Source of the DNA: Colwellia psychrerythraea
GTDB taxonomy: Bacteria; Pseudomonadota; Gammaproteobacteria; Enterobacterales; Alteromonadaceae
Direction of reading: 5' to 3'
DNA length: 64,000 nucleotides
NCBI GenBank assembly: GCA_002163005.1
Contig: MAAF01000010.1
Span: 1 to 64,000, forward strand
Shown: positions 26,572-55,034 of the stretch, in pieces
How positions within the stretch are numbered: position 1 is the stretch's first letter
How the letters are laid out: each line of letters opens with the position of its first letter
The notes under the pieces: model-generated
Databases searched by the model: none
What the model saw: the letters and a program-made list of their open reading frames with translations, nothing else
What the model was told of the DNA's origin: nothing
Program-made: the position numbers and the translations under genes

Positions 26572-26616
26572 ATGTCCGCAGGAAAATTTATTGTCATTGA
26601 AGGTATGGAAGGCGCT
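26572..26616 (+). pseudogene. tmk: 5' fragment of the chromosomal tmk, cut by the island
   Basis: The first 15 codons of the native thymidylate kinase, MSAGKFIVIEGMEGA. They end in GGCGCT, inside the Walker A motif (GMEGAGKS when rejoined with the right-hand fragment). Past the junction the frame runs five codons into island DNA and stops at 26634. It is separated by 27.8 kb from the remainder of the gene at 54441-55034, and cannot be functional alone. Confidence 0.92.
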
Positions 26617-26629
26617 TTATTTTCGGAAA
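26611..26629. repeat. Left attachment site (attL)
   Basis: The core GGCGCT is followed by the arm TTATTTTCGG. At the right end the core is preceded by CCGAAATTAT, which matches the inverse of the left arm at 8 of 10 positions. In a circular form the two arms would flank one core as an inverted repeat, the expected layout for a tyrosine-recombinase crossover site with a 6-base core. Confidence 0.7.
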
Positions 26630-26638
26630 GATAAAAAC

Positions 26639-26681
26639 GTAAACTTATTGATATTATTTTCTGTTTTGTTATTATGTAAAC
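26639..26681. promoter_or_regulatory. Left-end GTAAAC words and weak promoter
   Basis: GTAAAC occurs at 26639-26644 and 26676-26681. The same word in opposite orientation (GTTTAC) occurs at 54163, 54243, 54282 and 54407 near the right end. These may be arm-type binding sites for a recombinase or accessory protein. A weak promoter-like pair, TTGATA (26648) and TTATGT (26672), could drive the island tmk operon. Confidence 0.35.
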
Positions 26682-26715
26682 TAGTGTGTTCGTTTGATAA
26701 GTTGTGGAGTAAGTA

Positions 26716-27345
26716 GTGAGCAAAGGGTACATGATAGTTTGCGATGGAAGTAACGGTGCAGGTAAAAGCACACTTATTAAATCAATTGAAGGGTATCTTA
26801 AGAGTAAGAAGCAAAAGGTTCTTGTTACACGAGAGCCTGGTGGGACTCCCATTGGTGAAGGAATTCGTCATATCTTACTTAATCCTGATACACCAGAGAT
26901 GTGTGATACAACAGAGTTAATGTTATTTGCAGCTGCTCGAGCACAACATATCCAAGAAAAAATACTTCCTAACATTCAAGATGGGAGAATTGTAATTTGT
27001 GATCGGTTTGATTCGGCGACAGTTAGCTTTCAGCATTACGCAAGGGGCTTACCTTTAAGTCTAATTAATCAGCTAAATGAAATCGCTCTAGATGGTTTTC
27101 GCCCAGATATAACAATTATTCTTGACCTAGATCCTTTGATAGGTCTTGAACGCGTTAAATTGCGAGGCGAAGGTTTAGATCGACTAGAAAAGCAAGACAT
27201 GGAATTTTTAAATAGAGCACGTGATGGCTATTTAAAGCAAGCAGAAAATGATCCAGAACATTTTGCAATTATAGATGCTTCACAACCAATTAAGAAAGTT
27301 GAATCTGATGTATTTGATATTTTAGATAAACTTTTAATGTCTTAA
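26716..27345 (+). CDS. tmk: Island-borne thymidylate kinase (replacement copy)
   Basis: The enzyme phosphorylates dTMP to dTDP, which is essential for DNA synthesis. This complete 209-residue protein starts at a GTG preceded by GGAG. It has the P-loop DGSNGAGKSTL, the TREPGGTPIGE loop, the DR motif in CDRFDSATVSFQ, and an arginine-containing LID (RLEKQDMEFLNR). It differs strongly from the host enzyme pieces, which have DRHDLSSRAYQ. It is the first gene of the recombinase operon and lies only 100 bases from the left junction, in the same orientation as the gene it replaces. It presumably keeps the host alive after insertion. Confidence 0.93.
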   Translation: MSKGYMIVCDGSNGAGKSTLIKSIEGYLKSKKQKVLVTREPGGTPIGEGIRHILLNPDTPEMCDTTELMLFAAARAQHIQEKILPNIQDGRIVICDRFDSATVSFQHYARGLPLSLINQLNEIALDGFRPDITIILDLDPLIGLERVKLRGEGLDRLEKQDMEFLNRARDGYLKQAENDPEHFAIIDASQPIKKVESDVFDILDKLLMS

Positions 27346-27360
27346 TCAAGGGGGAGACGT

Positions 27361-29352
27361 TTGAATTACCTTTCACTATTCAAGAGCAAGGAAATTGCAG
27401 AAGCATCAGATGGTCGACATATTCCTTGTGATTACATTAATCATAAACGTTTTGAGCTGGACTGTAATTATTGCTTGGGTCTTCATTATGTGTTTATTCG
27501 TTACACTCAAGATTGCACATACAGTAAAGGATATACACTTCGAAAGACTATCCATCATCTCCTTGATTTTACAGTTATATTCGAAAGTAAAAATGTTAAA
27601 GATTTACACCCAACAAGCCTTTTAAATATAAATACTGAATTCTTTTATAGCTTTTACCTTTACCTTCAAGAAATACAAGCTCCAAAAGAGATGGCAACTA
27701 GACTAAAAAGTTCTCTAGTTAAAGTCGCTGCACAAAATGATCATGGTATGCCATTACTAATGCTCCCCATTCTACATGAGTCAGGCTCTAAACCGAGAGA
27801 ACCAATTTCAGAGGGATGTTTTGATGAATTGAGTCTAGCTCTTAGAGAACACATCGACAAACTATATGAAAAATTAGAGTATAGGAAACTAGTTGAACAG
27901 TCAGAACCTTACAATATTAGCGACATTCGTAAGCTAATATCTGAGCATCAAAAAAAAGGTCGAATCGGGTATTGGGAACCATCAAATAAAAGAGCTTTAA
28001 AAACTTTACTTTATCACAAACACCCTTTCTCTGTTCCATTTGAAGAATATCTAAGTGCTGCTTTCAAGGATTTTAACTCTTCAAATGTGTTACACGAGCT
28101 ATATGGGCGTTATTTGAACCCTCAATTACGATTTACTGATAAAAAGGCTGGTCGTTTAATCTATTACCTTGAGTCTTTAGTTGAATCATATTTTCCAACT
28201 CCTACAGATCAAGTTGCGATTGTATTATTTATTATGATTCAAACAGGATGGAATAAAGAAACTGTTTTCGCTATAGATAAAGATAACTTTGAGCATGTCT
28301 TAACTTCAGCCTTAAGTACTAATCAAGTGTTAATTATCTCTGAAAAAGAAAGAGGTCAAAGTATAGATAAACCTTTTTTCGACCCGAAATGTTTCAAATC
28401 AGCTAGTGATAAAAAAGATAAATATTCTACGTATAATTTAATTCATCTTGCTAAGGCACTATCTGAACCTTTTATAGGATTACCAGAAGATAGTACTAGT
28501 AACATGGACAGAACAAATCATAATTATCTATTTTCTTGTATGAGATTCTGTCAACAATGGAGTGCAACCAATACAAAGCAAGGGGGAAGACCTGGGCGTT
28601 ATTCAACTCTTGCGGTTAAATCATTATGGACAGTTGGTATAAAAAGGTTCTTTGAAAAATATGAAGTTTTTGATAATGGAAAAAAAATAACCAAGGCACA
28701 AGATCTAAATGGTAGATTACGACCTACTTGGATTAAGTATGTTAGGGATAAAAGGAAGCACCCTTTAAGCCTAATTAGCATGGAGCAAGGGCACTCAAGT
28801 ATTGAGACTACTGATGTTCATTATGATAACTCTAGTGCAGCTAACCAGAACCGCAGAGAGCGACTAAAAGGCGAATTAGATTTATTAACTAAATCATTAC
28901 GTGAACGAAAATTTAAAGGATTACTTTATAATCGCAATACTACAAGTATAGACAAAACACCTTTAAATTTTTTTACCATTCCCGGTCATAAAAAAAGCTT
29001 ATGGGGTTGTATGAACTCTAAAAAAGCCGATTGGCCAGGGAGTGACAAATGGCTTATGTCTGGGCAAAAGTGTAATGCTATTGCAAAATGCTTGTTTTGT
29101 AGTCAAATATGTATTTTTGAAGATTCACTACCTTATTTAATGGAACGTGAACATATAATACAGTCCCAACTTCTCACTTCTGAAGATGGTATAACTGATC
29201 CCTTATTGCATGATGAACTAGAAATTATTCAATATATCTTTGATGAATGGGGCAATGAAAAAGCATTAAAAAATGCAGCCCGTTTTCATCGAAAAAATAA
29301 TAACTTGTTACCCAATGACATGCGGTCACTTTCAATGTTTTTTGAGGACTAA
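27361..29352 (+). CDS. Large tyrosine-recombinase-fold protein with degenerate active site
   Basis: A 663-residue protein starting at a TTG after the strong site GGGGAG, 15 bases after tmk. The C-terminal half has the outline of a phage-integrase domain. In the box I position the usual TGLR reads TGWN (asparagine near 298). Box II is reduced to RPTWIKYVR, while box III/tyrosine looks present (QGHSSIETTDVHY, tyrosine near 488). A cysteine group follows (CNAIAKCLFCSQIC, about 577-590), a possible metal site. Loss of the catalytic arginine suggests a structural or regulatory partner of the other recombinases. I cannot match it with certainty to a named family; a Gamma-Mobile-Trio or Tn554-like component is possible. 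Confidence 0.75.
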   Translation: MNYLSLFKSKEIAEASDGRHIPCDYINHKRFELDCNYCLGLHYVFIRYTQDCTYSKGYTLRKTIHHLLDFTVIFESKNVKDLHPTSLLNINTEFFYSFYLYLQEIQAPKEMATRLKSSLVKVAAQNDHGMPLLMLPILHESGSKPREPISEGCFDELSLALREHIDKLYEKLEYRKLVEQSEPYNISDIRKLISEHQKKGRIGYWEPSNKRALKTLLYHKHPFSVPFEEYLSAAFKDFNSSNVLHELYGRYLNPQLRFTDKKAGRLIYYLESLVESYFPTPTDQVAIVLFIMIQTGWNKETVFAIDKDNFEHVLTSALSTNQVLIISEKERGQSIDKPFFDPKCFKSASDKKDKYSTYNLIHLAKALSEPFIGLPEDSTSNMDRTNHNYLFSCMRFCQQWSATNTKQGGRPGRYSTLAVKSLWTVGIKRFFEKYEVFDNGKKITKAQDLNGRLRPTWIKYVRDKRKHPLSLISMEQGHSSIETTDVHYDNSSAANQNRRERLKGELDLLTKSLRERKFKGLLYNRNTTSIDKTPLNFFTIPGHKKSLWGCMNSKKADWPGSDKWLMSGQKCNAIAKCLFCSQICIFEDSLPYLMEREHIIQSQLLTSEDGITDPLLHDELEIIQYIFDEWGNEKALKNAARFHRKNNNLLPNDMRSLSMFFED

Positions 29353-29354
29353 TC

Positions 29355-31400
29355 ATGGCTAAAAAGAAAAAAGTAGACCTCGATACTGTCGAACTTTCTC
29401 TTAACGAATTGAAGTCTGACTCCCAAGAAGCCGCAGAATATTTATTATCTCATCAACAAAAAATCTATACCGGAAAGTTACTAAAACATATAGGAGGAGG
29501 ATTGCTTGTGAAATTGAGGGCTGCTCCAAATGGAGATTTTTCATTAACAGAGCGCTCAAAATATTCAGATAGAAAATGGCAGTTACCTATTAAATCAAGT
29601 AAAAACACAATCACCTTTTATAGTGATTTACTTGGTAGTAATGATCTAAAAAGAGTAATTTCATATCATTTATTACCTGCATCCCACCCTTTTGGTCGAA
29701 TTCGAAGTTACGAATCTTCAACAACATATGCAAGTGCTCACAGCTATATTGAAAAGTATGTTCTGTTACCTAATGCCTTGGATGGAAGCCCAAAATCAAT
29801 AAAAGCAATTTCGACAAAACTATTGAATAAAGCCTTGGATGCAGCTAGGGATGATAGCTCATTAAGAGCTTATTCATTTCTACATTTCTATATATGCTTT
29901 TGGATTGCTCTTTCTGAGCAGAAACTAATTCCCACTGAATATCGATTAAATATCCCGTTAATAAAAATCGATAACAAAGAGAGAAAGCTGGATATTCAAG
30001 CGCAAATTGAAGAGGAACGCATAGGCTGGTCACCATTATCTGAAGATGAATTAACAAAGTTAATTGAACACTCTTTATTCTGGACTGACAAAGCCCTTCC
30101 TGAATTATTGAAAATTAAAAAATATATTGTTAAAAATGATTATCATCAACAGAAGCACCCTGCCATCATTACTACAAATAATATCCCTGAGTTAGAGGCG
30201 TTACTTGGGAAGGAGGTTGATGGAGTTGCTATTTGTGGTTATACAATGCCTGTGATTTCTCAAAGAATAAAGGGGCGACAATATCTTACATACAATTATA
30301 ATTGGCGAAAAAAATACCGATTAGCTGTTGATAAAGTTAGAGATGGGGTTCTTATTATCTTAGCCCTTATAACAGGATTAAGGAGTCGGGAACTTGGTAA
30401 AATAACATTTGATGATTTAATTCTAGGGGATGATCTTGAATGGAAACTAAATGTAGCACGCTTTAAAACAAGTGATGATCCCAATTTTTTTGGTGAAAAA
30501 GATTCTATCCCATTGCCATCAATTCTGGGGGAGTTAATCTCTGAATATAAAGATCTACGATCGATTTCTGGTCTTATGCGAAATGGCTTAATGTTTGAAC
30601 AAACTTCAAACCGAACGTTGGAACTAGAAAACCATGCCTCAAGTAGGGCGATACAGAAAAATTTTTCAAGGATAGGAAAAGAGTTAGGATTAGATTCAAT
30701 ACATGCTCACCGCTTTAGAAAAACTATTGCTGAAATATTGATAAAAAAATCAGAGAGAAATATAGATTTAATAAGAATGCTATTTGGTCATAAGAGCTAT
30801 CGAATGACTCTAAGGTACATTGCCCGTAACCCTTATATGGTGAGTTCTATTACTGAAGCTATGGAAGTTCACTATGCTGAAAGTTTTATGAAAATAGTTT
30901 CAGCTACCCAAAATGGGTCGTATTCTGGGATCGCTGCGGAAAGGATTGCATCATCACTATCAGATAGACCGGAATTGTTTAAAGGGAAGTTGTTTAAGTT
31001 ATCGATTCAAGAATACCTAGCTTACTTGCTTCAAGCTGGAGTACCTATTTTTATTCAACGTACAACAATTGGAACATACTGTGTAAGTACAGAGTCATAT
31101 GCGGAATCAAATCAACCACCATGCATAAAGAATAACCTTAATCAATTAACAATGCCTGACATCAGTAATTGTCAATTAGAGTGTGCTAATGCCGTAGTAT
31201 TAGAAGATGCGAAGACGTCGCTAGAAGAAAACGTAACTTTCTATGAGAGTATTATTGATAATGCAATTGGAGAATTGTCTGGAAAAGCTATTGAAGAGCT
31301 AAAAAGAAAAGTAAAAACAAATAAGCGACATTTAGGTAATCTAAATAGTAAGACTTGTATTGGAAAAGAGCGATTAGAAACCTCTAAGGTTCAATCATGA
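29355..31400 (+). CDS. Tyrosine recombinase with intact catalytic residues
   Basis: A 681-residue site-specific recombinase. The catalytic set is visible: arginine about 343 in ITGLRSRELG, HRFR at about 452-455, GHKS, and the nucleophilic tyrosine about 488 in MTLRYIARNP. The long N-terminal part should bind arm and core DNA, and a C-terminal extension of about 190 residues has scattered cysteines. The ATG follows GAGGAC, two bases after the preceding gene, and its stop overlaps the next start (ATGA). It is the best candidate for the strand-cutting enzyme of the island, possibly the counterpart of GmtZ. Confidence 0.85.
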   Translation: MAKKKKVDLDTVELSLNELKSDSQEAAEYLLSHQQKIYTGKLLKHIGGGLLVKLRAAPNGDFSLTERSKYSDRKWQLPIKSSKNTITFYSDLLGSNDLKRVISYHLLPASHPFGRIRSYESSTTYASAHSYIEKYVLLPNALDGSPKSIKAISTKLLNKALDAARDDSSLRAYSFLHFYICFWIALSEQKLIPTEYRLNIPLIKIDNKERKLDIQAQIEEERIGWSPLSEDELTKLIEHSLFWTDKALPELLKIKKYIVKNDYHQQKHPAIITTNNIPELEALLGKEVDGVAICGYTMPVISQRIKGRQYLTYNYNWRKKYRLAVDKVRDGVLIILALITGLRSRELGKITFDDLILGDDLEWKLNVARFKTSDDPNFFGEKDSIPLPSILGELISEYKDLRSISGLMRNGLMFEQTSNRTLELENHASSRAIQKNFSRIGKELGLDSIHAHRFRKTIAEILIKKSERNIDLIRMLFGHKSYRMTLRYIARNPYMVSSITEAMEVHYAESFMKIVSATQNGSYSGIAAERIASSLSDRPELFKGKLFKLSIQEYLAYLLQAGVPIFIQRTTIGTYCVSTESYAESNQPPCIKNNLNQLTMPDISNCQLECANAVVLEDAKTSLEENVTFYESIIDNAIGELSGKAIEELKRKVKTNKRHLGNLNSKTCIGKERLETSKVQS

Positions 31401-32386
31401 CAGCGAAAAGTACAGAGCAACGAATCATTAAAGTTATTGCTGAACATTATCTTGAGGATGGGCAATCCAAGTTAACCATTCAAGAGGTATCGAATCGCTC
31501 AGGTATTACACGGCAAGCTTTCAATCGAAATTATAAACACTTAAAACCTTACGTGGTTGGCTCTCGACCAATAGAAGATATTTTGACAGGAAATATTGAA
31601 GAACTTCGTTCTTTACTTGTGAATAGCCAAAAAAGAGTTCGTCAATTAAACGAAGAAATTACTAAAGGTAAATTTGACCACTTAGAAGAAATAAAGAACA
31701 TTAAAAATAGCTATATTACAACGTTAATGAACGATGATATTGCATTATCTGAAAGCGATGAAATACGTAAAACACTTGAAAAGCAAGCTATGCATAATGA
31801 AAGTTTGGTTTCTAGTATTAAAAAACTTGAGCGAGAGCTAACTGTCGAAAAAGCAAGGGCGGTATCTCATAATATTAATAGCAGTTCATCGAATGATTGC
31901 GAGTCTGAGCTAATCCCTGTTTCACCTGATATTGAAACAGTATTCAACAATTATATTAAATCAAAAAATATTGATATTTATGAGGATGAAAAGGATTTGG
32001 CAATCAATAAAGTGATAAAACGAATAAATAAATTTTCTATCGCTGAAGATTCATGTGTTGTCCTTTTTATTGATAGATATTTATGTAGCTTTGATAATTT
32101 TGTTAAACAGTATAAATCCAGCAACATTGGCCCGACAATAATAGTAAAATTACCATTGTTTACTAGAACTGAGTTGAAACTTTTTTCAAAAAAAATCCAA
32201 GGTGAAGCTCTTATAAATATATATGTGCCATTTTCTGATAGTGAAACCACTATAAAAGCTCAGAGAGCATTTTTATTTAGATCTATACCTGAACCAGAAA
32301 TTAATTCTGCAGATCGAATGGCATTTCCGTCAATTATTGATGGACATAACATGGTTTCAATATTTCGAATTTATCAAGGAGATTAA
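31397..32386 (+). CDS. Helix-turn-helix coiled-coil accessory protein (GmtX-like?)
   Basis: A 329-residue protein. Residues about 25-55 form a helix-turn-helix (LTIQEVSNRSGITRQAFNRN). A coiled coil follows at about 65-165, then a C-terminal alpha/beta domain (CVVLFIDRYLCSFDNF onward) I do not recognise. It is translationally coupled to the recombinase before it by a 4-base overlap and directly abuts the recombinase after it. Small HTH/coiled-coil proteins accompany several recombinase groups (TnpC of Tn554, GmtX of Gamma-Mobile-Trio islands), so a DNA-bridging or directionality role is likely. The exact family is not certain. Confidence 0.7.
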   Translation: MTAKSTEQRIIKVIAEHYLEDGQSKLTIQEVSNRSGITRQAFNRNYKHLKPYVVGSRPIEDILTGNIEELRSLLVNSQKRVRQLNEEITKGKFDHLEEIKNIKNSYITTLMNDDIALSESDEIRKTLEKQAMHNESLVSSIKKLERELTVEKARAVSHNINSSSSNDCESELIPVSPDIETVFNNYIKSKNIDIYEDEKDLAINKVIKRINKFSIAEDSCVVLFIDRYLCSFDNFVKQYKSSNIGPTIIVKLPLFTRTELKLFSKKIQGEALINIYVPFSDSETTIKAQRAFLFRSIPEPEINSADRMAFPSIIDGHNMVSIFRIYQGD

Positions 32387-33682
32387 ATGCTTTGTATTGA
32401 ACGTCGATTAATTTGTTATCGAAGTATTGAGTCTAATAGGGAAATGAACCACCATATATTGATAGCTAATATTGATAAAAAACATGTTTTACTTAGTCAT
32501 CCCAACTTGTTTCTAAGTGAAAATGCTCGATCATCAAAGTGTACTTCTAATCGATATTCAGGGGTCATATCTATGTTTTATCGATTTTTATCTACGCAGA
32601 AAAAATACGAAAGTATTGATGTTTCTCTATATCATGTCCTTTCTGATAATCGTGATATAAAAAGATGGCAAGTTGAAAGACAAATAATGCGAGTTCGAGA
32701 GCAAAAGGATAGCCCGTCATCATCAACAATATTTGAAGATGCTAAGATATTATTGATGTTCTTTAAATGGGTTAAAGACGCGGGTTATATCACTAATGTT
32801 AATATTCAACTTGTAAATTGGGTTGCGAACTTTAAAAACAGTAATATGCTTAATTATGTAAGAAAAAAAGCAAAAATAAAAATAGACGCTAAGAATATTA
32901 CTGTCTTAGATAAAGAGCGTCGACAAAAAAAAGTCAAAACCTTAATTACGAATATGGAAATAAAAACGTTAATTGAGTCTTACAGTGACCCAGTTTATGG
33001 AGCAATGTTTAAGTTATCATTAGGTACAGCAATGCGTCCAATGGATCTATGTGGATTTCCATATTTAGGAAACGGTAGCAATAAGCATATATTACCATAC
33101 TCAGATATGAGTAAAGGAGCCTCTGCGATTGTTGAATATACTGTACGGGCTAGTAAGGGTAATAAATCTAGAACTATAAAGATAAATCGTGCTGATTTAA
33201 AGGTACTTGAGAAATATTATATCAAGCCATACTATTCTGAGCGTGCTGATAAATATGAGGAAAAATACGGAAAAAAATGTCCCCCTTCGATTTTATTTTT
33301 GAATAAAAAAGGTGAACCAGTAACACCTAGCAAAGTTGCATCAAGAACTAATGATGCCAAAGTAATTGCAAAAAATTCTTATGCTGATTTCAGGGATGGA
33401 GTTGTTTTCTATGATGCACGTCATTGGTGGCCTACAATGTTCCTCGTTAATTTCTTTAAAGATAGGCTTCTTACCGAGTCTGCTGATGTACTGTATGCAG
33501 CTGCCGCACAAGTTTTAATCGAACAAATGGGGCATGAAGATATAGGAACTACATATAAGTACTATGTTGATTTGTCACGACTAGTTGTTATGGCGCATAA
33601 AGGGAAAGTATCAGAACTAATAACGGAAGAAGAATCTGTAGGAGAGTTTATAGAACGCATGGATGGCGTTTTAGTAGCCTAA
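32387..33682 (+). CDS. Tyrosine recombinase (third of the operon)
   Basis: A 431-residue phage-integrase-type protein. Box I arginine is near 217 in GTAMRPMDL. Box II reads YDARHWW, so the usual first histidine is replaced by tyrosine 342 while arginine 345 and histidine 346 remain. Box III is MGHEDIG, and tyrosines lie near 392-393 in TYKYYVDL. The ATG follows AAGGAGATTAA and abuts the previous stop codon. It is probably active or partly active and works with the 29355-31400 recombinase. It closes the tmk-recombinase operon. Confidence 0.85.
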   Translation: MLCIERRLICYRSIESNREMNHHILIANIDKKHVLLSHPNLFLSENARSSKCTSNRYSGVISMFYRFLSTQKKYESIDVSLYHVLSDNRDIKRWQVERQIMRVREQKDSPSSSTIFEDAKILLMFFKWVKDAGYITNVNIQLVNWVANFKNSNMLNYVRKKAKIKIDAKNITVLDKERRQKKVKTLITNMEIKTLIESYSDPVYGAMFKLSLGTAMRPMDLCGFPYLGNGSNKHILPYSDMSKGASAIVEYTVRASKGNKSRTIKINRADLKVLEKYYIKPYYSERADKYEEKYGKKCPPSILFLNKKGEPVTPSKVASRTNDAKVIAKNSYADFRDGVVFYDARHWWPTMFLVNFFKDRLLTESADVLYAAAAQVLIEQMGHEDIGTTYKYYVDLSRLVVMAHKGKVSELITEEESVGEFIERMDGVLVA

Positions 33683-33751
33683 ACGGTTAAGTGTACTGGT
33701 TGACTGAAACTCTAAACTAAGGGCGACAATTGCTTTCCCTCAAATAATGAG

Positions 33752-34276
33752 TTAGATTTCATTGAAAAAAGTAATATGTGACTTATTTATTGGTTCATGG
33801 CTTTTATGGTAAACCCGTACAAATTGATCAATAACCTCTTGGGCATATTTATAGTTATTATTTAAAACTTCTTGGTAACTATTTTCTGGTGTTATTTCTA
33901 AAAGTAACTGATTGTTACAAAACTCTTGGTTCCTGTATCTTTCAGTACCCGGTATCACATTGACAACATACACAACACAGGGATTAGCGATTTGTAGCTC
34001 TTTAGCTACATCAAAAGCACAAATACCAGAAAGTATAGGCGTTTGTTGACATTTACTGATGTCAAATTGCAACCTTTCCAAGTCGAGTCGCTCTATATAT
34101 GGAGCTAAACTATCCTTAATCACGTAATTATCAAAATCGAAAAAGTCACGACTAAGTGATTTGGCAACCGCCATTGCAATAGTTGTCTTTCCTGACTCAC
34201 TTGCTCCGTCAAATATAATGACTCTAGACGAGTAATTTTGTTCAATACTTAATATTAAATCTTCGACGTTGTTGAT
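33752..34276 (-). CDS. P-loop NTPase/kinase-like partner of the Abi_C protein
   Basis: The frame is open from 34276. Reading from there adds 34 residues before the first ATG (34174) and includes a full Walker A motif, IFDGASESGKTTIA. A following FDFDNYV and a short core give the look of a nucleoside-kinase or zeta-toxin-like fold, about 174 residues in all. No ATG, GTG or TTG exists in frame ahead of the P-loop. A strong AAGGAG that overlaps the stop region of the upstream gene lies five bases before an ATC codon at 34276. Either ATC is used as a rare start or the start codon is mutated. An ATG-start model would lack the P-loop. Function unknown. Confidence 0.55.
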   Translation of the reverse strand: MNNVEDLILSIEQNYSSRVIIFDGASESGKTTIAMAVAKSLSRDFFDFDNYVIKDSLAPYIERLDLERLQFDISKCQQTPILSGICAFDVAKELQIANPCVVYVVNVIPGTERYRNQEFCNNQLLLEITPENSYQEVLNNNYKYAQEVIDQFVRVYHKSHEPINKSHITFFNEI

Positions 34277-34285
34277 AGGAGCTCC

Positions 34286-35107
34286 TTAGGTGGTTTTTGA
34301 GTGATACATTTCCATAACAAAAACAACTATAGTATGTGCTGAATTCACAGCTAACCTTGCTTCAGCGACCACGATACTTGGTGGTGTAATCTCACGGCCA
34401 TGAGCCGAGCCGATATGCGATCTGAATGCCCCAACACCATCAATAATTGCAGTTATACCTTTTAAAACTTTGTGCTGGTCGTTAGCGAGTATAGAGTTAG
34501 GATTTAAGCTTATATGTGGCTGGACGATAGACCAGAGTGGAATAACGTTTAACTTTTGAGGCATTACTAAATTACATTTTTCAATGTAAAACTTTAATGT
34601 TGACTCAATAATCGAACATGCTGCGGTGATAGAGGCATGTGGGTCAGGGTCTATATTGGCAATTGCTCTTTCAAATTCTTTTTCAATAGATGCGAAATCG
34701 CCTGAACTTAAATAATCTTCTAGCGTCTTTATAATAGGAGTAGAACCAGATAATGTAATATAACCATTCATTCGATATGAAAGTTGATTTTTAGCTAAAG
34801 CATTATTAATTCTTGATTGCCCGTTGATTACTTTATCTTGCGCCGAATCACCATAGTAAGATGGCTGTGGGTCCATATCCATAAATTCTTGAATAATGTT
34901 AGCTAAAATATCTATCGCATTAACTGAAGAGTCGTCATTACAACGCCTCAACCAAGCGGTACATTTTTTTTCACAGTTCCCCTCTGGTGCATCTCCTGGA
35001 GCACCTGATTCCATAAATAATGACTCAAGCTTTGCGTGACTATAATAGTAATCGGCTATTACAGAAGACACTGCGCCAATAATCGAATTAGGTATATTTG
35101 AATTCAA
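34286..35107 (-). CDS. Abortive-infection family protein with Abi_C domain
   Basis: The C-terminal about 90 residues match the Abi_C (PF14355) pattern, ending with FRSHIGSAHGRE, a variant of the family's lRnkyGdaHG motif. The rest of the protein is helical and unassigned. I use a TTG at 35107 because AAGGAG sits six bases before it, giving 273 residues. A TTG at 35152 would add 15 residues without a ribosome-binding site. The P-loop gene follows after nine bases. Abi_C proteins are found in defence loci and are thought to act as or with toxins. Cargo of the island, transcribed opposite to the recombinases. Confidence 0.7.
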   Translation of the reverse strand: MNSNIPNSIIGAVSSVIADYYYSHAKLESLFMESGAPGDAPEGNCEKKCTAWLRRCNDDSSVNAIDILANIIQEFMDMDPQPSYYGDSAQDKVINGQSRINNALAKNQLSYRMNGYITLSGSTPIIKTLEDYLSSGDFASIEKEFERAIANIDPDPHASITAACSIIESTLKFYIEKCNLVMPQKLNVIPLWSIVQPHISLNPNSILANDQHKVLKGITAIIDGVGAFRSHIGSAHGREITPPSIVVAEARLAVNSAHTIVVFVMEMYHSKTT

Positions 35108-35334
35108 CGATAACTCCTTAAATCTCTGATTCTTTGCTAAACGGCTGAACAATCAGCTCTTACTCATTACCATATATTTAAATGATGCTGTACATTATTA
35201 CAGCACCATCATATTATCCACCCTAAGTGAATGCAATACATGTATGAACACAATAGTTTCTCACACAACAATTAAGCTGCATTGTAAATGAATACTTATC
35301 GGATCCATTTTATTAGCAGAGGGAGAAGTAATTA

Positions 35335-35772
35335 ATGGCTAACGGGCAACAATCAGGGAAAGAAAACCTTGATACATTTCTTCTTTGGAAAATTACTCAG
35401 ACAGATGATACTTACAAGGAAATGGTTTACCGTGGGCAGCTTAATCGTAGTGATATTGCTATTGCTTGTGGCTTTGGGAAGTCAGCCCTTAGGCAAAATC
35501 CAGCAATAAAAGATGAACTCGAAAAACTTGAAGATGAACTGCGTGAGCGCGAAATTTTACCAAGTAAATCAGAAGAGCGTATTGAAAAAGAGATTCGGCC
35601 TAAAGAGTTTGACCAATCAGCTACAGGGAATACGTTGAATAAAAGACGGTTATCGAAGCTTGAGCAAGAAAACATTGAACTTCAAGCTAAAGTACGTGAG
35701 CTTGAGCGTAAACTAGAAAAATACTCTGAGCTAGGTGATGTTATTGGTGAATTAGGAATGATGCCTAGATGA
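35335..35772 (+). CDS. Small VPA1267-like coiled-coil DNA-associated protein
   Basis: A 145-residue protein. The N-terminal about 60 residues look like a compact helical domain (LNRSDIAIACGFGKSALRQN, helix-turn-helix-like) and the C-terminal 45 residues are a coiled coil (KLEQENIELQAKVRELERKL). It resembles the VPA1267 family described near Gamma-Mobile-Trio genes in Vibrio, recalled from memory. Its stop overlaps the start of the RecD-like helicase gene by four bases (ATGA), so the two are translationally coupled. The ATG follows AGAGGGAGAAG. Probably part of island maintenance or excision rather than defence. Confidence 0.6.
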   Translation: MANGQQSGKENLDTFLLWKITQTDDTYKEMVYRGQLNRSDIAIACGFGKSALRQNPAIKDELEKLEDELREREILPSKSEERIEKEIRPKEFDQSATGNTLNKRRLSKLEQENIELQAKVRELERKLEKYSELGDVIGELGMMPR

Positions 35773-37952
35773 TTTATTCAGAAGTTAGAGAGTCAAGGTT
35801 TAGGGTTACTAGTGTAACTCGCAACACGTCTAACTATGTCATCTTTATGGGATCACCATTAGATAACAGCAATAAAGTGTTTAGCGCAAAGACCTTAATA
35901 TCAATAATGTCAAAGAAAACTAACCTTCCTGTCGAGCCTGCTATAGGGCAGCACTGGATGGTTAAGGATAAGTATACAATCTCTGATTTCGATAACAATG
36001 GTTACATATACAAACAACTCACCTATGAAGATCCCGTATTCGCGGTGTGCACGCTTCCTGAAACAGGTGAGCAATTTATAAAGTTTATTGCATACGAAAA
36101 AGCATTCAAAGGTATTGGTACCGTTAAAGCTAGAGAGCTTTGGGAATACTATGACAAAGAAATTTATGCAATGCTCAGCCGCAATTATGCTGAAGACAAA
36201 GTATCGTTAAGCAAAATGCTTAGTGATACTTCTATAGAAGCTTTGTATGAAGGATTTAAAAAGTATTCGAATCTTAAATACGCCAATTGGATGTCTCAAA
36301 AGCAGATCCCTTCAAACGTACAGCAATCATTGTTAAAGTTTCATGGGGACAAATCCATCAAAGAGATCCAGCGAGATCCTTTTAAACTGATGTCATTTGG
36401 TATGTCGTTTAAAGCTGTTAGCGAATTAGCTAAATCTCATTTTAATGTTGTTAACGATGATGAGAGAAGACTGTCAGCGGCAATAGAAGAGGCTTTACGT
36501 GCTTCTTTAGGTAATGGTAATACATTCTCAAGTCAAAACGAGTTAAAGCCAATAGTAAGGCGCTTGTTAGGCTGCATGGAACTGACCAAAAAAGCTTTTC
36601 AAGTCGGATTTAGTAAAAGTCAGTATATTATTCACCCTGAACATGGAACATATCATCAATCAGCCACATTGATCATGGAGGGTGTAATTACAAAACGATT
36701 TAAGAAGCTAGCAAGCTTTGGTGACACCTTCGATGAATCATTCACTAAAAGCTCAAGGCAAGCGATTGATGAGTTGCCTTATCCATTGGTCGGCAAGCAA
36801 CAAGAAGCTGTTGTGAACGCATTAGCATTTAAAATAGCGTGTATTACAGGTGGTGCCGGTACAGGGAAAACAACGGTACTTAGAACCGTGCTAAGGGCTA
36901 TGCATTTCGTTGGTTATACAATACATGCCATAGCTCTATCAGGTCGAGCTGCTATGAGGATGCATGAATCTATCGGTTTTGCTACATGCACCATTGCGGC
37001 ATTCTTACGAAAAGAAGAGATTAATGATGATGGTAAGCATATAGTCGTTATCGATGAAGCATCAATGGTTGATATACCTACGATGTACAGGATTGTCACG
37101 CATATCCACCCTAATGTTCGGATCTTATTTGTGGGTGATCCTAACCAACTACCTCCTATTGGGCCAGGTAAAGTGTTAGCTGATGTGGTAAGTAGCGGCA
37201 CAATTATGAACACAACATTAGATATCGTTAAACGACAAGAAGCTAGTACAGGTGTCCCTGAGTACAGCGCACAGATCCGTGATGGTATCGTTCCTAAGAA
37301 TTTATCTTTTGGCAACATAATATTTCATGAAACTCCTGAAGATGAAATATCAGCTAAATGCGTTGAGTTATATTCGCAGTCACCTAAAGATAGTCGTGTT
37401 ATAGGTGCTACATATAAAACAACGTATGGTGGTATAGATGAAATTAACAGCCTCGCCCAAGCAGAGAATAATCCAGATGGACAGATGCTAACTATTAAGC
37501 ACGAAGGCGAAATGCAATTTGTACGTATTAAGCTCGGAGATCCTGTTTTGTTCACCAAAAACAATTATGATATTGGAGTACAAAATGGCTCGCTTGGCGA
37601 AGTTACATCTACTGAGCATGTTGGTGATAAATTTGGTGTAGTGAAACTTGATACAGGTGATGAGGTTGAACTTGATTTGGATTTGTTTAACTCTATTAAA
37701 CTGGGCTATGCAATATCACTACATAAAGCTCAAGGCTCACAGTTTCATCGCATAATAATTAGTCTTAAAAGTGGTAGGATTGTTGACCGAAGTTGGTTGT
37801 ATACTGCAATTACAAGGGCTGAGACGGAGGTTCATATTGTTGGTAAAAAAAGTGATTTCATTAATATCACTCAACATGAAAGTAATGCTAATAAACGGAG
37901 TTCATTTTTAGGTGAACTATTGTCAGGTCAGAACGTTAAAGATTTGACTTAA
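35769..37952 (+). CDS. RecD-like (RecD2 type) SF1 DNA helicase
   Basis: A 727-residue ATP-dependent 5'-3' helicase of the RecD/TraA group. Walker A is GGAGTGKTTVLRT near 362-370, motif II is VIDEASMVD near 428, and motif III is FVGDPNQLPPIGPGKV. The C-terminal motifs include YAISLHKAQGSQFHRI and YTAITRAE. The N-terminal part has the helical region usual in stand-alone RecD2 rather than a RecBC-binding domain. It is coupled to the VPA1267-like gene. It could process element DNA during excision or transfer, or belong to a defence module; the context favours the former. Confidence 0.88.
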   Translation: MIYSEVRESRFRVTSVTRNTSNYVIFMGSPLDNSNKVFSAKTLISIMSKKTNLPVEPAIGQHWMVKDKYTISDFDNNGYIYKQLTYEDPVFAVCTLPETGEQFIKFIAYEKAFKGIGTVKARELWEYYDKEIYAMLSRNYAEDKVSLSKMLSDTSIEALYEGFKKYSNLKYANWMSQKQIPSNVQQSLLKFHGDKSIKEIQRDPFKLMSFGMSFKAVSELAKSHFNVVNDDERRLSAAIEEALRASLGNGNTFSSQNELKPIVRRLLGCMELTKKAFQVGFSKSQYIIHPEHGTYHQSATLIMEGVITKRFKKLASFGDTFDESFTKSSRQAIDELPYPLVGKQQEAVVNALAFKIACITGGAGTGKTTVLRTVLRAMHFVGYTIHAIALSGRAAMRMHESIGFATCTIAAFLRKEEINDDGKHIVVIDEASMVDIPTMYRIVTHIHPNVRILFVGDPNQLPPIGPGKVLADVVSSGTIMNTTLDIVKRQEASTGVPEYSAQIRDGIVPKNLSFGNIIFHETPEDEISAKCVELYSQSPKDSRVIGATYKTTYGGIDEINSLAQAENNPDGQMLTIKHEGEMQFVRIKLGDPVLFTKNNYDIGVQNGSLGEVTSTEHVGDKFGVVKLDTGDEVELDLDLFNSIKLGYAISLHKAQGSQFHRIIISLKSGRIVDRSWLYTAITRAETEVHIVGKKSDFINITQHESNANKRSSFLGELLSGQNVKDLT

Positions 37953-38204: not shown

Positions 38205-39386
38205 ATGATTCATTTTGAAATAAAAAACACCCAATTGCAGCTTATATATCAGCCAGATAATAGTGATGTAAGATGGATTGACGGTAAATTAAAGAATGAT
38301 GGAGAAGTATCCATAGGCTTTACGTTTCGATTTAACTCGAATGATTTAATTAGCGCGGATGATGAAGAAAGAGTATTTGTTTTAGGTGTTTCTGAAGACA
38401 ATTGTTATCGTATAAAAAGCCGCATCCTTGGTACAGAGCATGATGTTCTTCTGAGTAAAAAACTTAATATATCAAGAAAGACTTTTATTGCTCAAAGAAA
38501 CATATCTGTGCTTTCTAAAATAGATCGAGTCCTTGATGAACCTATTATAATTAGTGATGATATTCTGGGTGCCTTACCCATCAATGAGTTCAATCGTTTA
38601 CTTAGTAACTTTCCTACAAGTACTGAATTAAAGCATTATGCTGGATCTCGTATAACGGGTGTGCTTAAAGACTATTTTGAAACGACATCCGATGCACAGG
38701 AAAAACTAGACAAGTTCTTAAACAAAAAGAAAGATATAAGAAAACCTTCAAAGGTAAAGTGGATATATAGCTACGAAGAGAAGAAGTATCAATATATTCG
38801 AGACACTTTTGTTGAAATGCTTAAAGATGCAAATTCATTTACTGAAAAAGAATGGCAAAAACAGATTGCTGAGTTTTTATTATTAATATTCCCTAAATAC
38901 ATTGCTGTAATTGAAAATGTACCTGTAAAAGATTATTACACTAACCCTAAAAAAGTAACAGATAGGTATATTGATATTGCCCTTGTGGATGCTAATGGAA
39001 ATATTGATATTATCGAAGTAAAAAAGCCATTCGATAGTACTTTATTATATTCGAGCACAGTGCGCGATAATTACGTACCTAAAAGAGAGTTATCTGCGAC
39101 AGTGATCCAAGTAGAAAAATACTTATTTCATCTGAGTAAAAATGGACGAGAAGGAGAAAAACGTATTAGAGATAAGTATATTAATGAATTACCAAAAAAT
39201 ATTAAAATCAATATAACAAACCCTAAAGGAATGTTGATTTTAGGACGAGATGAAAAACTTGATGAACAGCAAAAATTTGACTTTGAAATTATTAAACGAA
39301 AGTACGCTAACGTAATGGATATAATGACTTACGACGATATACTACGGAGACTAGATAACATAATAGAAAAATATACATCATTATAA
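38205..39386 (+). CDS. sduA: Shedu anti-phage nuclease SduA
   Basis: A 393-residue single-gene defence protein of the Shedu/DUF4263 family. The N-terminal about 200 residues are a variable sensor region. The C-terminal domain carries a PD-(D/E)XK site: aspartate about 257 in RYIDIALVD and E271-V-K273 in DIIEVKKP. LSATVIQVEKYLFHL and KGMLILGRDE, typical of Shedu, follow. Shedu proteins form oligomeric nucleases that act on DNA during phage infection. It stands alone with 250-base gaps on both sides, so it likely has its own promoter. Confidence 0.88.
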   Translation: MIHFEIKNTQLQLIYQPDNSDVRWIDGKLKNDGEVSIGFTFRFNSNDLISADDEERVFVLGVSEDNCYRIKSRILGTEHDVLLSKKLNISRKTFIAQRNISVLSKIDRVLDEPIIISDDILGALPINEFNRLLSNFPTSTELKHYAGSRITGVLKDYFETTSDAQEKLDKFLNKKKDIRKPSKVKWIYSYEEKKYQYIRDTFVEMLKDANSFTEKEWQKQIAEFLLLIFPKYIAVIENVPVKDYYTNPKKVTDRYIDIALVDANGNIDIIEVKKPFDSTLLYSSTVRDNYVPKRELSATVIQVEKYLFHLSKNGREGEKRIRDKYINELPKNIKINITNPKGMLILGRDEKLDEQQKFDFEIIKRKYANVMDIMTYDDILRRLDNIIEKYTSL

Positions 39387-42835: not shown

Positions 42836-43963
42836 CTAAGATTCAAGGAGACCCTCTCGCTCAAGTACTTCACGAATATCTTCAAATGCAGCACGTATGT
42901 TACCCTTTGGAAATCTTATTTGACCAACGCCGTGGATATTGGAAAACTCCTGACAACCTTCTTCAAGTAAAATAATTGCTCGCTTAAAAGTAAGGCAACC
43001 TTGAAATAAGCCTACTTCATGGATAACATTTTCCCTCGCGTGTACGGTATTATCTGCATGTTCATCTTCAGCTGTCATTATTAAAAATGCAAAAGATGCC
43101 TGATCGAGCATCGTCTCTAAACGTTCTTTTATTGATATACCTGCTGTTGACTCTCGGTTGAATTCATCCCAATCTAATTTTAAGCGATCAGCAAGGAAAT
43201 GAGAGAGATCACGCCACATAAGACTTCGCCCATGACCGATAAACACTTTTCCTTCTGAAGTTTTATCTGGAATAATTTTTCGATACTTTTGTCGAAAGTA
43301 TGTAGCTGATCTTTCGGCAATCTTTGATAGCTCTTCAATTTGGGTAAAGTAAGATTTTAAAGCGTATAACCAAGTCTTAACCCCCACATGTGGCGGAGCA
43401 ATAAACCCCTGAGACATAGCCAAAGAATCACGTGTCATAACTTGACCTTTAGGTTGTAATGCTTTCATTAACTTTTGTTGGGGGAAATGGGATTTAAGAT
43501 TTTTAGCTTCATCCCTGAAAGCTTCAATTGTTTCAGATTTTGTTTCCTCCAGAATGATCGTTAAAATCATCACTAATTCAGCTTGCAACTTTTCAAAAAG
43601 CTTACCTGTATCATTTGCAATATCAACCAGTTCTGAATCTTCATCTACACCTGATTGATCGAAAATATATCCTTTGACGTCCTCAGGACCATATTCTCTC
43701 CAATTTTGCGATACGGTGTTACTGAAAGTATCTTGAAACCCCCATTCTTTACTGAAATGATCGCCAGGCTGTGGGATATTAAAGCCAACATAATAAACAT
43801 GAGCATGATAGCCAAGCCAAGAGTTAGATGAAGCCCTTTCAACCTGTCTAATAACATCTTCTAACGAAGAAAGTTGTTTATCAAACCCTTGAATTTCAAA
43901 CTCTAGAGCTGACTTTTTGCATTGCTCAGCTATACCCAAAAGTTCATTGATTTTTTCTTCCAT
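42836..43963 (-). CDS. TIR-like domain protein, candidate anti-phage effector
   Basis: A 375-residue protein. The C-terminal about 130 residues match the PF10137 TIR-like family (predicted nucleotide-binding; the family includes the Pycsar effector PycTIR). KVFIGHGRSLMWRDLSHFL is the first strand and loop, followed by FNRESTAGISIKERLE, ENVIHEVGLFQGC with the expected catalytic glutamate, and a final RFPKGNI stretch. The N-terminal 240 residues are helical and unassigned; they may sense infection or mediate assembly. The start at 43963 (MEEKINELLG) is supported by AAGGGG a few bases upstream. TIR domains of this kind typically destroy NAD+. No cyclase gene is adjacent. Confidence 0.8.
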   Translation of the reverse strand: MEEKINELLGIAEQCKKSALEFEIQGFDKQLSSLEDVIRQVERASSNSWLGYHAHVYYVGFNIPQPGDHFSKEWGFQDTFSNTVSQNWREYGPEDVKGYIFDQSGVDEDSELVDIANDTGKLFEKLQAELVMILTIILEETKSETIEAFRDEAKNLKSHFPQQKLMKALQPKGQVMTRDSLAMSQGFIAPPHVGVKTWLYALKSYFTQIEELSKIAERSATYFRQKYRKIIPDKTSEGKVFIGHGRSLMWRDLSHFLADRLKLDWDEFNRESTAGISIKERLETMLDQASFAFLIMTAEDEHADNTVHARENVIHEVGLFQGCLTFKRAIILLEEGCQEFSNIHGVGQIRFPKGNIRAAFEDIREVLEREGLLES

Positions 43964-44182
43964 ATACGCCCCTTGTTTTACCAAGTAAAACTAATAATGA
44001 ATGTTGAATTAAGCTAGTAATAGCTTTGATGTGAATATTTATATTTTTACAATATTTTTAATGGGTTACAAGAGAATTATGGTTAGGGACTACCTTTTAG
44101 TTAATGTTCATAAATTACTTAGGTTCAATTCGGTTTAGCGGTATGATGTAATGAATTGATTACTTCGCAAAAGGAAAGTTTC

Positions 44183-45157: not shown

Positions 45158-45298
45158 TTTATATAAGTTTTGTGGAACCATCGAAGTTTAAAGAATATGA
45201 CGGTTCTATAAACGATGATTTATCATTATCACACTTCGATTATTGAAAGGTTCCTGTGATATGAATAAAAATTAAATATCACATTTCAGGACTTATTT

Positions 45299-45526: not shown

Positions 45527-45547
45527 TCATATTATTCGGTAATTGAA

Positions 45548-46414: not shown

Positions 46415-46495
46415 TTTGTTTGGTGTCATTGAAAAACATTTAAAATTAGATAATCACAGTAGCTCAAAAATAACTAATAAATCGCAGGAAATATC

Positions 46496-46840
46496 GTGAA
46501 AATCGCAGTTAAAATAATTTTACCCTTTGTATTTATATTCGTTGCTGGATTCGGTGTCGGTTCTTCAATAACATCACCTGAACATGCAATTATATATATT
46601 GACGAAAGCACCGAAACCTATCTATCTCCATCATGTGTTTCAAAAAGCAAAACTCAATTTATGGCCCAAATGACAATAAAAGATGTACGTAATTTAACTT
46701 TAAGCATAAATAAAGAATGCGTAAACCGAGGCGGGTTCGTTCAAAATGGTAGGTCCTTTAGCGGAAAGCTATTAGAATCATTAGGCTTTATCCCTAAATT
46801 AAAAGAACGTTGGAATAATGACGGTTCTTGGAATTGGTAA
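46496..46840 (+). CDS. Small secreted or membrane-anchored hypothetical protein
   Basis: A 114-residue protein starting at a GTG after CAGGAAAT. Residues 4-24 form a signal peptide or membrane anchor (VKIILPFVFIFVAGFGVG). The remaining 90 residues with two cysteines (PSCVS, KECVN) would lie in the periplasm. No family recognised. Confidence 0.5.
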   Translation: MKIAVKIILPFVFIFVAGFGVGSSITSPEHAIIYIDESTETYLSPSCVSKSKTQFMAQMTIKDVRNLTLSINKECVNRGGFVQNGRSFSGKLLESLGFIPKLKERWNNDGSWNW

Positions 46841-46890
46841 TAATATGTTTGAACTTAATCAATAAGCTAAAATAATACTTGGAGTTATTT

Positions 46891-47670: not shown

Positions 47671-47765
47671 ACTCCCTTGAGGTTATAGGGTGAATTTGCG
47701 GGTGATCCCCCGCACTATAAACTCCAGTTAATTAGACAAAGATTAAAAATAAAAAGAGATAGCTA

Positions 47766-51881: not shown

Positions 51882-52056
51882 CTCATTGAACTTATTAAGT
51901 GAGAATTCAGCTCACGAACCGGTACATTTCTTTAACTGTTTTGTGCGTGATCCTGTATATACAGAGAAGACTAAACACAATCGCAAGCAATACAATCCAG
52001 TTGACCGTTTTGCCATTAATGAGAACTTGATGAAGTTATTAGAAGGAAATAAATAA
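51832..52056 (+). pseudogene. Out-of-frame C-terminal tail of the helicase-nuclease
   Basis: This short frame continues the nuclease fold in the +1 frame relative to 47766-51881. Read from the poly-A run it gives HGIAPRYVYVNIDWNHNS and then a polar tail to a TAA whose last base is the first base of the next ATG. That one-base stop/start overlap is the usual sign of a coupled operon and supports the idea that this is the true end of the helicase-nuclease. A GTG at 51859 could start it as a separate 65-residue protein, but no ribosome-binding site precedes it. Confidence 0.6.
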
Positions 52057-54158: not shown

Positions 54159-54330
54159 CTAAGTTTACATGTTTAAAACTGAATATACATTTCCATTTGG
54201 ATAGTTAAAGAGGGAAGTTTATTTCAAATTCAATCGGAATTAGTTTACAATTGGCCTCATTAGATGTGCTTAATTAAGTGTGTTTACATTGGCTAAATAA
54301 ATTGGATGGTAAATGATGTTTTTTAGAATG

Positions 54331-54358
54331 TTAACATTAACAGAAGCTCTTATATGAT
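54331..54358 (+). promoter_or_regulatory. Candidate outward promoter at the island right end
   Basis: TTAACA (54331-54336), 16 bases, TATGAT (54353-54358). It points out of the island into the tmk remnant and holB. The essential holB lost its mltG-side transcription when the island inserted, so a promoter here would restore it. Confidence 0.5.
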
Positions 54359-54421
54359 GCAGGTTTCTGAGCCGTATGAACATGTTTCTCACTCACTCAC
54401 TCACGCGTTTACATTAAAAAG

Positions 54422-54440
54422 TAACCGAAATTATGGCGCT
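54422..54440. repeat. Right attachment site (attR)
   Basis: The arm CCGAAATTAT (54425-54434) precedes the core GGCGCT (54435-54440), after which the tmk coding sequence resumes as GGAAAATCATCG. Four tandem TCAC units (54389-54404) lie just inside. GTTTAC words occur at 54163, 54243, 54282 and 54407, with a GTTAAC variant at 54330. Confidence 0.7.
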
Positions 54441-55034
54441 GGAAAATCATCGGCTATTGCTGTCATTGAAAGTACCCTTATTAAGCATGGCATTGAGTAT
54501 ATTAATACCAGAGAGCCCGGTGGTACCCCATTAGCTGAATCCTTACGTGATATGGTCAAATCGGTAGAACATCACGAAAAGCTTACCGAGGAAACAGAAT
54601 TACTACTTATGTATGCTAGTCGCAGTCAATTACTTGCTAACAAGATTCTGCCGGCTTTAGCGGCAGGAAAGTGGGTGATAGGTGACCGCCATGATTTGAG
54701 TTCGCGCGCATATCAAGGTGGAGGTCGGGGATTTGACGAAACTATAATGAATACTATTAGTGATATCACTTTAAAAGGCTTTCGTCCTGATATCACTCTT
54801 TATTTAGATATAGATCCACATATTGGTTTATCTCGAGCTAAAGCTAGAGGTGACCTAGACCGTATTGAATTAGAGAAGATGGATTTTTTTATTCGTGTTC
54901 ATAATAAGTACCGAGAACTTGCCGAACAAGATGACTCAATTATTACTGTTGATGCTGCACAAGCCATGTTAACAGTACATGAAGATGTAGAAAAAGCTGT
55001 TATCGGGTTTATTGCTAAAACAGATAAGGGTTAG
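54441..55034 (+). pseudogene. tmk: 3' fragment of the chromosomal tmk
   Basis: The remainder of the native thymidylate kinase, beginning GKSSAIAVIESTLI. It continues through TREPGGTPLAE, the DR motif GDRHDLSSRAYQGGGRG, and LID residues GDLDRIELEKMDF. Joined with 26572-26616 it gives 212 residues, the normal length. The frame is still open back to an ATG at 54354 in island DNA, so a hybrid could be made. However, it would lack the first beta strand, and the first glycine of the P-loop becomes arginine (RNYGAGKS instead of GMEGAGKS). I judge it inactive. holB follows after eight bases. Confidence 0.85.

Follow-up and report, generated by a model that had tools for sequence, protein, structure and literature searches.

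The DNA examined here, referred to as the window, is a 64,000-nucleotide stretch from Colwellia psychrerythraea (positions 1 to 64,000 of contig MAAF01000010.1, assembly GCA_002163005.1), in which the resident thymidylate kinase gene, tmk, is interrupted by a genomic island of 27.8 kb. Very probably a site-specific island with three recombinases, similar to the previously described GInts and SEs, has split this gene while bringing a replacement tmk of its own, and the same plan is followed by islands with related recombinases at thyA. The window represents contig C60 of the source genome (G000), a draft assembly of 121 contigs with 94% completeness and 2.3% contamination.

The split tmk and its replacement

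The resident tmk is present as two pieces, 26572-26616 and 54435-55034, and the hexanucleotide GGCGCT (the core) is found at both junctions, within the codons of the Walker A motif, which is cut between EGMEGA and GKS. The left piece translates to MSAGKFIVIEGMEGA, while the right piece opens with GAGKSSAI. As stated in an earlier note on this DNA, which had placed the right half at 54441, i.e., just past its copy of the core, the halves rejoin through GGCGCT into a frame of 212 residues, representing a thymidylate kinase that begins MSAGKFIVIEGMEGAGKSS. An unbroken 212-residue tmk with 95% identity over 199 residues is located between mltG and holB in two congeners (G303 and G297, loci L065 and L066), and because the rejoined frame matches this uninterrupted gene, the insertion is exact and lies in the Walker A codons. 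The search for uninterrupted tmk in congeners which the earlier note had proposed returned an unbroken frame in 19 of 20 congeners with the native type of tmk (defined below), the remaining contig (C96 of G316) stopping 5 nt short of the core. The end of this contig at such a position (loci L019 and L159) may be due to chance or to an assembly break at a polymorphic insertion. The two cores are 27,818 bases apart, and the GC content of the island is 0.347, as compared to 0.377 and 0.379 for its flanks.

The gene at 26716-27345, just inside the left border, is predicted to encode a complete dTMP kinase: it matches TIGR00041 with 175 bits (cut-off 83.25) over profile positions 1-196 of 196, its closest solved enzyme is 4e5u (E 7.8e-43), and in the alignment to the latter it displays the stretches GSNGAGKST, REPGGTP, CDRF and LDR, which we take to be the catalytic motifs of this enzyme family. 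It is approximately 40% identical to the resident tmk, starts 99 bases inside the left core, has the same orientation as the resident gene and lies upstream of the recombinase genes, all of which agrees with the earlier note's description of a divergent tmk heading the recombinase operon. A search for a promoter of this gene yielded one good-looking site, although the count of five sites in the region is close to the shuffle mean of 4.3 and thus not above expectation. A search of the whole genome with the island tmk returned itself and the resident 3' part and no further tmk.

With up to 15 candidates scored per genome, TIGR00041 matches were obtained for 192 of 197 genomes of the order, and 51 of these genomes, besides that of the window, were listed with at least two matches. 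When all 51 were searched again with the island tmk, each was found to possess one convincing tmk, three of them with an additional weak match (E 9e-6 to 1.6e-4). The presence of two convincing tmk genes in one genome is therefore exceptional, the window genome being the only example seen among the 197. Within the island tmk the positions equivalent to the core read GGTGCA rather than GGCGCT, and the nucleotides at the cut site differ between replacement and resident gene in all seven islands compared (including the thyA islands described below), a difference that gene divergence alone could explain.

The island type of tmk is also encountered as a resident gene in the genus. A tmk match was obtained in 37 of 39 genomes (window genome included), of which 21, including the window's own resident gene, are of the native type and 16 are of a foreign type with 39-46% identity to the native window tmk and 60-64% identity to the island tmk. 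All 16 foreign-type genes (L049-L064) occupy the mltG-tmk-holB locus; about 9 kb of other genes separates mltG from tmk in two cases, and ten of the 16 loci contain extra, ordinary-looking genes in this interval, as judged by eye and not by family search. A tree of 80 proteins unites the 16 foreign-type proteins with the island tmk, the tmk of a genome from another genus of the same family (G147, locus L135) and a tmk from a plasmid in a single clade (100/100), while the native type groups with other genera of the family, away from the island clade; a long-branch warning applies to this tree. Constraining the tmk of the genus to monophyly was rejected (p-AU 1.9e-6), and uniting the 16 proteins and the island tmk to the exclusion of G147 was disfavoured (p-AU 0.022, for a group named after the tree had been seen). 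Since the tmk tree conflicts with the genus, while mltG and holB unite both kinds of congener (with a modest support of 0.74 for the genus), a foreign tmk lineage appears from these sequences to have replaced the native tmk at its own locus. No recombinase matches were found at the 16 foreign-type loci, and a pattern search for a tmk stub in the ten gaps was likewise negative, so that past islands at those loci would be hypothetical. Searches of phage and plasmid sequences returned no tmk with 60% identity or more. The tmk of plasmid FeN3W is 54% identical to the island tmk, with no annotated recombinase set within 10 kb.

The recombinase set and the thyA islands

The operon that follows the island tmk encodes, in this order, recombinases A and B, a helix-turn-helix (HTH)-like protein and recombinase C. 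Recombinases B and C match Phage_integrase (PF00589), and a profile of recombinase B matches a XerC-like structure (E 2.5e-5). Recombinase B retains R343, H452, R455, H479 and Y488, which we take to be the five catalytic residues and all of which are identical in a megaplasmid-encoded relative. Recombinase A has no Pfam match; its profile produces weak matches to XerC-like, Int and IntI4 structures (E 5.5e-4 to 0.05), an alignment with its relatives exposes a GHSSIETT...Y box, and by our reading the first catalytic arginine is missing. The HTH-like protein, at 329 residues, is larger than its counterparts of approximately 160 residues in the thyA islands. No close relatives of the window recombinases were identified in 295 genomes of the order, 369 genomes of the class and 99 relatives, or, by single-protein scans, in viral contigs. 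In the viral contigs, the alignment of recombinase B from the thyA sets gave 35 candidates, none of which was confirmed. The window and megaplasmid pair of B proteins returned two loci with short matches there (L155 and L156). An identity with the so-called gamma-mobile-trio was considered first; no NCBIfam match named GMT was obtained for the recombinases of the window or of locus L067, the presence of such models in release 20 being unverified.

Distant relatives of the set were found at a second gene. Recombinase A, searched against the 295 genomes of the order, produced distant matches in three, and at each of these loci an operon of the order C-A-B-HTH is followed by a complete thyA; two of the three operons come immediately after a thyA that is truncated. 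A profile of recombinase B (E 1e-10 or better) matched six of the 295 genomes, i.e., that of the window and five others, and one of the 369 genomes of the class, which was the window genome itself; a wider contig scan confirmed at least one further locus, in a metagenome-assembled genome of Idiomarina. Homologues of recombinases A, B and C thus occur in an operon in six genomes, and when these were searched with one thyA protein, all six (having been picked through their recombinases) contained exactly three thyA places: one complete gene, one 5' piece and one 3' piece. In five of the six the complete gene is flanked by the two pieces on one contig, with 18 to 36 kb from piece to piece; in G172 the 3' piece is on another contig. 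The genus of G183 consists of only two genomes, both of which are already counted.

The thyA gene is cut between RS(C/A)D(V/I)(P/F)L and G in G183, G172, G219 and Idiomarina, just after PCMHTHT in G072 and between NAHI and Y in G098, positions which we presume to belong to active-site or substrate-binding motifs of ThyA. The resident pieces are approximately 28% identical to the G183 replacement in G183, G172 and G072, and 57% identical in Idiomarina, while the replacement of G219 is 82% identical to its own resident 5' part and that of G098 is 75-78% identical to its own resident parts. One type of replacement thyA (67-91% identity to the G183 copy) is common to four chromosomal and two plasmid-borne sets, the other type being present in G219 and G098. 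As the G183 and Idiomarina replacements are 91% identical even though the resident thyA types differ, the data fit a transfer of recombinase set and thyA as a unit. In the thyA island of G098 (L078 and L139) the replacement and the recombinase set are inverted relative to the split gene, and this island adjoins genes which by eye resemble a type III restriction-modification system. It looks as though related recombinase sets link the tmk and thyA islands in one plan, in which the target is broken and a complete spare is brought along, and this link appears to be new; islands that split thyA and bring a replacement were not encountered in the open-licence PMC literature searched.

A sister set to that of the window is carried by Pseudomonas megaplasmids. 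Recombinases A, B and C each match the same eight megaplasmids (nine records for A and eight each for B and C), the additional match of recombinase A being to a ninth, pZXPA-20. The order by coordinates is A-B-C in all eight, and the one which was read in detail has the order A-B-HTH-(small open reading frame)-C. The target is a gene of the PAPS-reductase family, which encodes 604 residues in pPA1045-1 and is cut at residue 293 in pWTJH6, where the 3' part is located about 30 kb away. No second PAPS-reductase gene that might act as a replacement was detected in the 49.9 kb read, the best other match having an E of 0.004 and 24.5% identity over 102 residues. This target is presumably dispensable, which is an assumption on our part, and because the sister set shows no replacement there, this single example fits the notion that replacements persist only at targets that require one. 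The pWTJH6 island (L085, 11545-41388) carries restriction-modification and SAVED/ThiF-type genes by annotation. On pZXPA-20-602k, a PAPS-reductase gene is followed by a recombinase A relative and an insertion sequence element (L083, 7025-10209), and the same plasmid also holds a thyA-type set (L082).

Layout and cargo of the locus

The features of the locus are compiled in Table 1. The earlier note had named the element a defence island, and this label is supported by the profile matches of three predicted genes, i.e., those for the Shedu protein SduA, a CAP12/Pycsar-type TIR effector and an AbiJ-like protein with Abi_C. A VPA1267-family gene precedes a RecD2-like helicase gene. The two large cargo genes obtained no family match in profile searches, and the 700-residue product has no solved relative by sequence; these adjacent genes may constitute an undescribed defence pair.

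Table 1. Features of the island and its chromosomal borders (positions within the window)
Feature	Position	Strand	Evidence
mltG, left chromosomal neighbour	25478..26491	+	84% identity to mltG adjoining uninterrupted tmk in G303; open reading frame
Resident tmk 5' stub, codons 1-15 (MSAGKFIVIEGMEGA), ending in the core	26572..26616	+	Aligned to G303/G297 tmk
Left core GGCGCT (Gly-Ala codons, Walker A)	26611..26616	+	
Promoter-like site TTGATA-16-TATTAT, between stub and island tmk	26648..26675	+	Site count of the region not above shuffle expectation
Predicted replacement tmk of the island, 209 aa	26716..27345	+	TIGR00041 and Pfam over cut-off; aligned to solved thymidylate kinases
Recombinase A, 663 aa, tyrosine-recombinase-like	27361..29352	+	Alignment with thyA-island proteins; weak profile matches to structures
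Recombinase B, 681 aa, tyrosine recombinase	29355..31400	+	PF00589; alignments
HTH/coiled-coil-like protein, 329 aa, positioned like GinD/Srap	31397..32386	+	Weak HTH match (E 0.049, under cut-off); position
Recombinase C, 431 aa, tyrosine recombinase of ordinary size	32387..33682	+	PF00589; alignment
AbiJ-like protein with Abi_C	34286..35152	-	Profile matches
VPA1267-family protein, then RecD2-like helicase	35335..37952	+	NF040697 over cut-off; TIGR01448 under cut-off
Shedu protein SduA	38205..39386	+	PADLOC SduA E 1.4e-152; Pfam SduA_C
TIR-domain effector, CAP12/Pycsar kind	42836..43984	-	PF10137 over cut-off
Two large cargo genes, 1371 aa and 700 aa	47766..54158	+	No family match
Right core GGCGCT	54435..54440	+	
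Resident tmk 3' body, from Walker A Gly-Ala on; present open reading frame from 54354	54435..55034	+	
holB, right chromosomal neighbour	55043..56044	+	86% identity to holB adjoining tmk in G303

Known elements, proposed mechanism and alternatives

The principle of breaking and replacing tmk is already known from Pseudomonas putida KT2440, in which a 65-kb island lies in tmk and the island-encoded deoxynucleoside monophosphate kinase (dNMPK) PP_1964 was reported to be the essential dTMP kinase, the tmk pieces making no contribution (PMC10653934). The same source reports similar islands in Pseudomonas, Halomonas, Acinetobacter and Psychrobacter, and describes four conserved genes next to that of the kinase: two for tyrosine recombinases, one for a regulator and a fourth, unknown one (PMC10653934). 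In both KT2440 and the window a large island splits tmk next to holB and supplies the only dTMP kinase, for the window as predicted from sequence. The KT2440 replacement is, however, a T4-like dNMPK encoded by the last gene of its island, whereas the left end of the window island encodes a TIGR00041 kinase, and the KT2440 tmk is reported to be cut into 294 and 339 bp, i.e., at about codon 98, rather than in the Walker A codons (PMC10653934). The dNMPK profile PF21448 (DNMK) found no match in the window genome and one weak match in 229 genomes of the class. What is new in the window is thus the use of a true Tmk at the P-loop, together with the thyA parallel.

With regard to the recombinases, GInts are described as having three tyrosine-recombinase proteins, one without the first arginine, and a small fourth protein, encoded in one operon at one end, with 6-nt staggered cuts, demonstrated circular forms and a variable cargo that includes restriction systems (PMC5385486); they have also been reported to carry defence systems at Escherichia coli hotspots (PMC10121019). 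Three tyrosine-recombinase proteins and a weakly assigned HTH protein in one operon are likewise found in the window. The order ginA-ginB-ginC-ginD does not fit the window's A-B-HTH-C, while the thyA sets, with C-A-B-HTH (ordinary, large, large, HTH), do fit it. GInt insertion is stated to be unlikely to inactivate targets completely, the sites named being ABC-transporter, ssb and ribonucleotide-reductase genes, and neither thyA nor tmk occurs in the main text of that paper, where a replacement gene as such is not described (PMC5385486). The GInts of P. aeruginosa located at the end of a 'duplicated' ribonucleoside-diphosphate reductase gene (PMC5385486) may be another case of a target with its replacement.

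SEs are reported to encode an ordinary and a large recombinase with catalytic residues, a degenerate third one and an accessory protein, to leave a 6-bp footprint at chosen targets, to occur in Alteromonadales, to have a median length of 15.7 kb and to end in imperfect inverted repeats of 13-19 bp (PMC10214605). The window shares with them an ordinary and a large recombinase, a degenerate third and an accessory protein. The six bases common to its junctions have the length of such a footprint, six bases also being the spacer length given for both GInts (PMC5385486) and SEs (PMC10214605). It differs from the SE order intA-tfp-intB with srap in having A (degenerate)-B-HTH-C (ordinary), and its end repeats are weak. 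The main text of the SE paper contains none of the words thymidylate, thyA and tmk (PMC10214605). A third comparison concerns Tn554, which resembles the window in having two tyrosine recombinases and an accessory protein, a specific target and a 6-bp footprint, for which the six shared bases of the window are a candidate, and differs from it in the absence of a third large recombinase-like protein. The target of Tn554 is radC, and we know of no replacement gene for this element. The proteins of Tn554-type elements, TnpA, TnpB and TnpC, comprise the two tyrosine recombinases and the accessory protein, as cited in PMC10214605.

The sequence of events which we propose is as follows. We infer that the recombinase set probably joined a circular form of the island to the chromosome at the 6-nt core in the Walker A codons, thereby splitting tmk after codon 13-15; the split, the core and the empty sites are observed. 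Loss of dTMP kinase is lethal, which would explain the presence of a xenologous tmk on the island, at the left end and directly downstream of the resident tmk start, from where it may be expressed from an island promoter or as part of the mltG-tmk transcript. Since the island now carries the sole intact tmk, inexact loss of the island should kill the cell, and because the core nucleotides of the replacement differ from those of the resident gene, the replacement itself would not be a target. At thyA, homologous recombinase sets would act alike: the cuts are at conserved motifs, and a complete thyA comes with the island. The self-complementing insertion suggested in the earlier note is borne out by the split target, the full replacement, the empty sites, the adjoining recombinase operon and the thyA parallel in six genomes. 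Its expectation that the island would be hard to lose unless excision is exact is an inference, and recombination between attL and attR of SEs reportedly does not restore an empty site (PMC10214605), so that exact excision may not be the route.

Several observations weigh against this scheme. Excision, circle formation, transfer and the kinase activity of the island are proposals drawn from sequence. The window recombinases share only 19-31% identity with those of the thyA and PAPS sets; the gene order A-B-HTH-C of the window and the PAPS set differs from the C-A-B-HTH of the thyA sets; H452 of recombinase B is not conserved in the thyA sets; and the predicted structure of recombinase A had a mean pLDDT of 31 and was not used. 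The score of the inverted repeats at the ends of the tmk island was reached by 55 of 1000 base shuffles, as compared to none of 1000 for G183 and G072 and 28 of 1000 for Idiomarina (for G172, G219, G098 and the PAPS island, only the unshuffled score of the ends was obtained), and such repeats are therefore clear in G183 and G072, moderate in Idiomarina and not convincing for the tmk island. The bases shared by the two ends number six in the tmk island (GGCGCT), with CCACTT in G183 (by eye) and fewer in the other islands. Finally, two plasmids carry a thyA set, one of these sets being truncated beside an IS30 transposase gene, and show no thyA fragment over the 26 and 19 kb that were read, and the pairing of the thyA set with a split target is consequently not universal.

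These plasmids, together with the PAPS sister set, which at a presumably dispensable gene shows no replacement within 49.9 kb, are also what would be expected if the replacement tmk were passive cargo and its presence a matter of survivor bias, since an island without a replacement would be lethal at tmk and hence never seen. We consider this doubtful, as in each of the seven split-gene islands the replacement adjoins the recombinase genes, preceding A in the window and following the HTH gene in the thyA sets, and as the occurrence of one thyA type in hosts whose resident thyA types differ suggests a unit that is maintained as such and not random cargo.

It is very improbable that the resident tmk still works, whether through assembly of its halves or through the open reading frame 54354-55034 with an N-terminus derived from the island, which would make the island tmk redundant. 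This frame is indeed open, and it scores 169 bits against TIGR00041 (positions 14-196 of 196), i.e., over the cut-off; it starts, however, within island sequence, and because the first strand and the first P-loop glycine are missing (NRNYGAGKS as opposed to EGMEGAGKS in the uninterrupted form) it is unlikely to function as a kinase. The tmk pieces of KT2440, moreover, are reported not to contribute, the island kinase being essential (PMC10653934). An assembly or binning artefact, in which the DNA of two organisms was joined, might be suspected from the draft state of the assembly, its contamination and the slightly lower GC content of the island, yet both junctions are on one contig and share the core at homologous codons, mltG and holB are in the expected order, and the same architecture is seen at thyA in six other assemblies, which makes such an artefact scarcely credible.

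If a recombinase-borne island with its own spare tmk is accepted, the question arises how general such elements are. The earlier note had anticipated that the Walker A codons would offer the same site in many species; no second tmk island was found with the recombinases as queries in 295 genomes of the order, 369 of the class and 99 relatives, and generality is instead indicated by thyA and by KT2440, where the cut is elsewhere. A broader proposal, for and against which we find the balance about even, is that a broad class of three-recombinase islands uses conserved active-site codons of essential DNA-precursor genes (tmk, thyA and perhaps nrdA) for attachment and carries, within the integration module, a diverged, site-proof replacement that acts as an addiction device, and that the replacement can outlive its island and become resident, mobile elements thus displacing essential genes in place, as may have occurred in 16 of 39 genomes of the genus and in G147.

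Essential genes are usually regarded as protected from mobile elements that disrupt genes. If the above proposal is true, catalytic motifs that are conserved across bacteria would serve as widely shared landing pads for islands that bring a spare, and the spare gene would act like a toxin-antitoxin module without the toxin. This would help to explain the persistence of defence islands as well as the foreign ancestry of some essential genes at their native position and possible differences between the gene-essentiality maps of strains, and the 'riddle' of KT2440 would become an instance of a rule.

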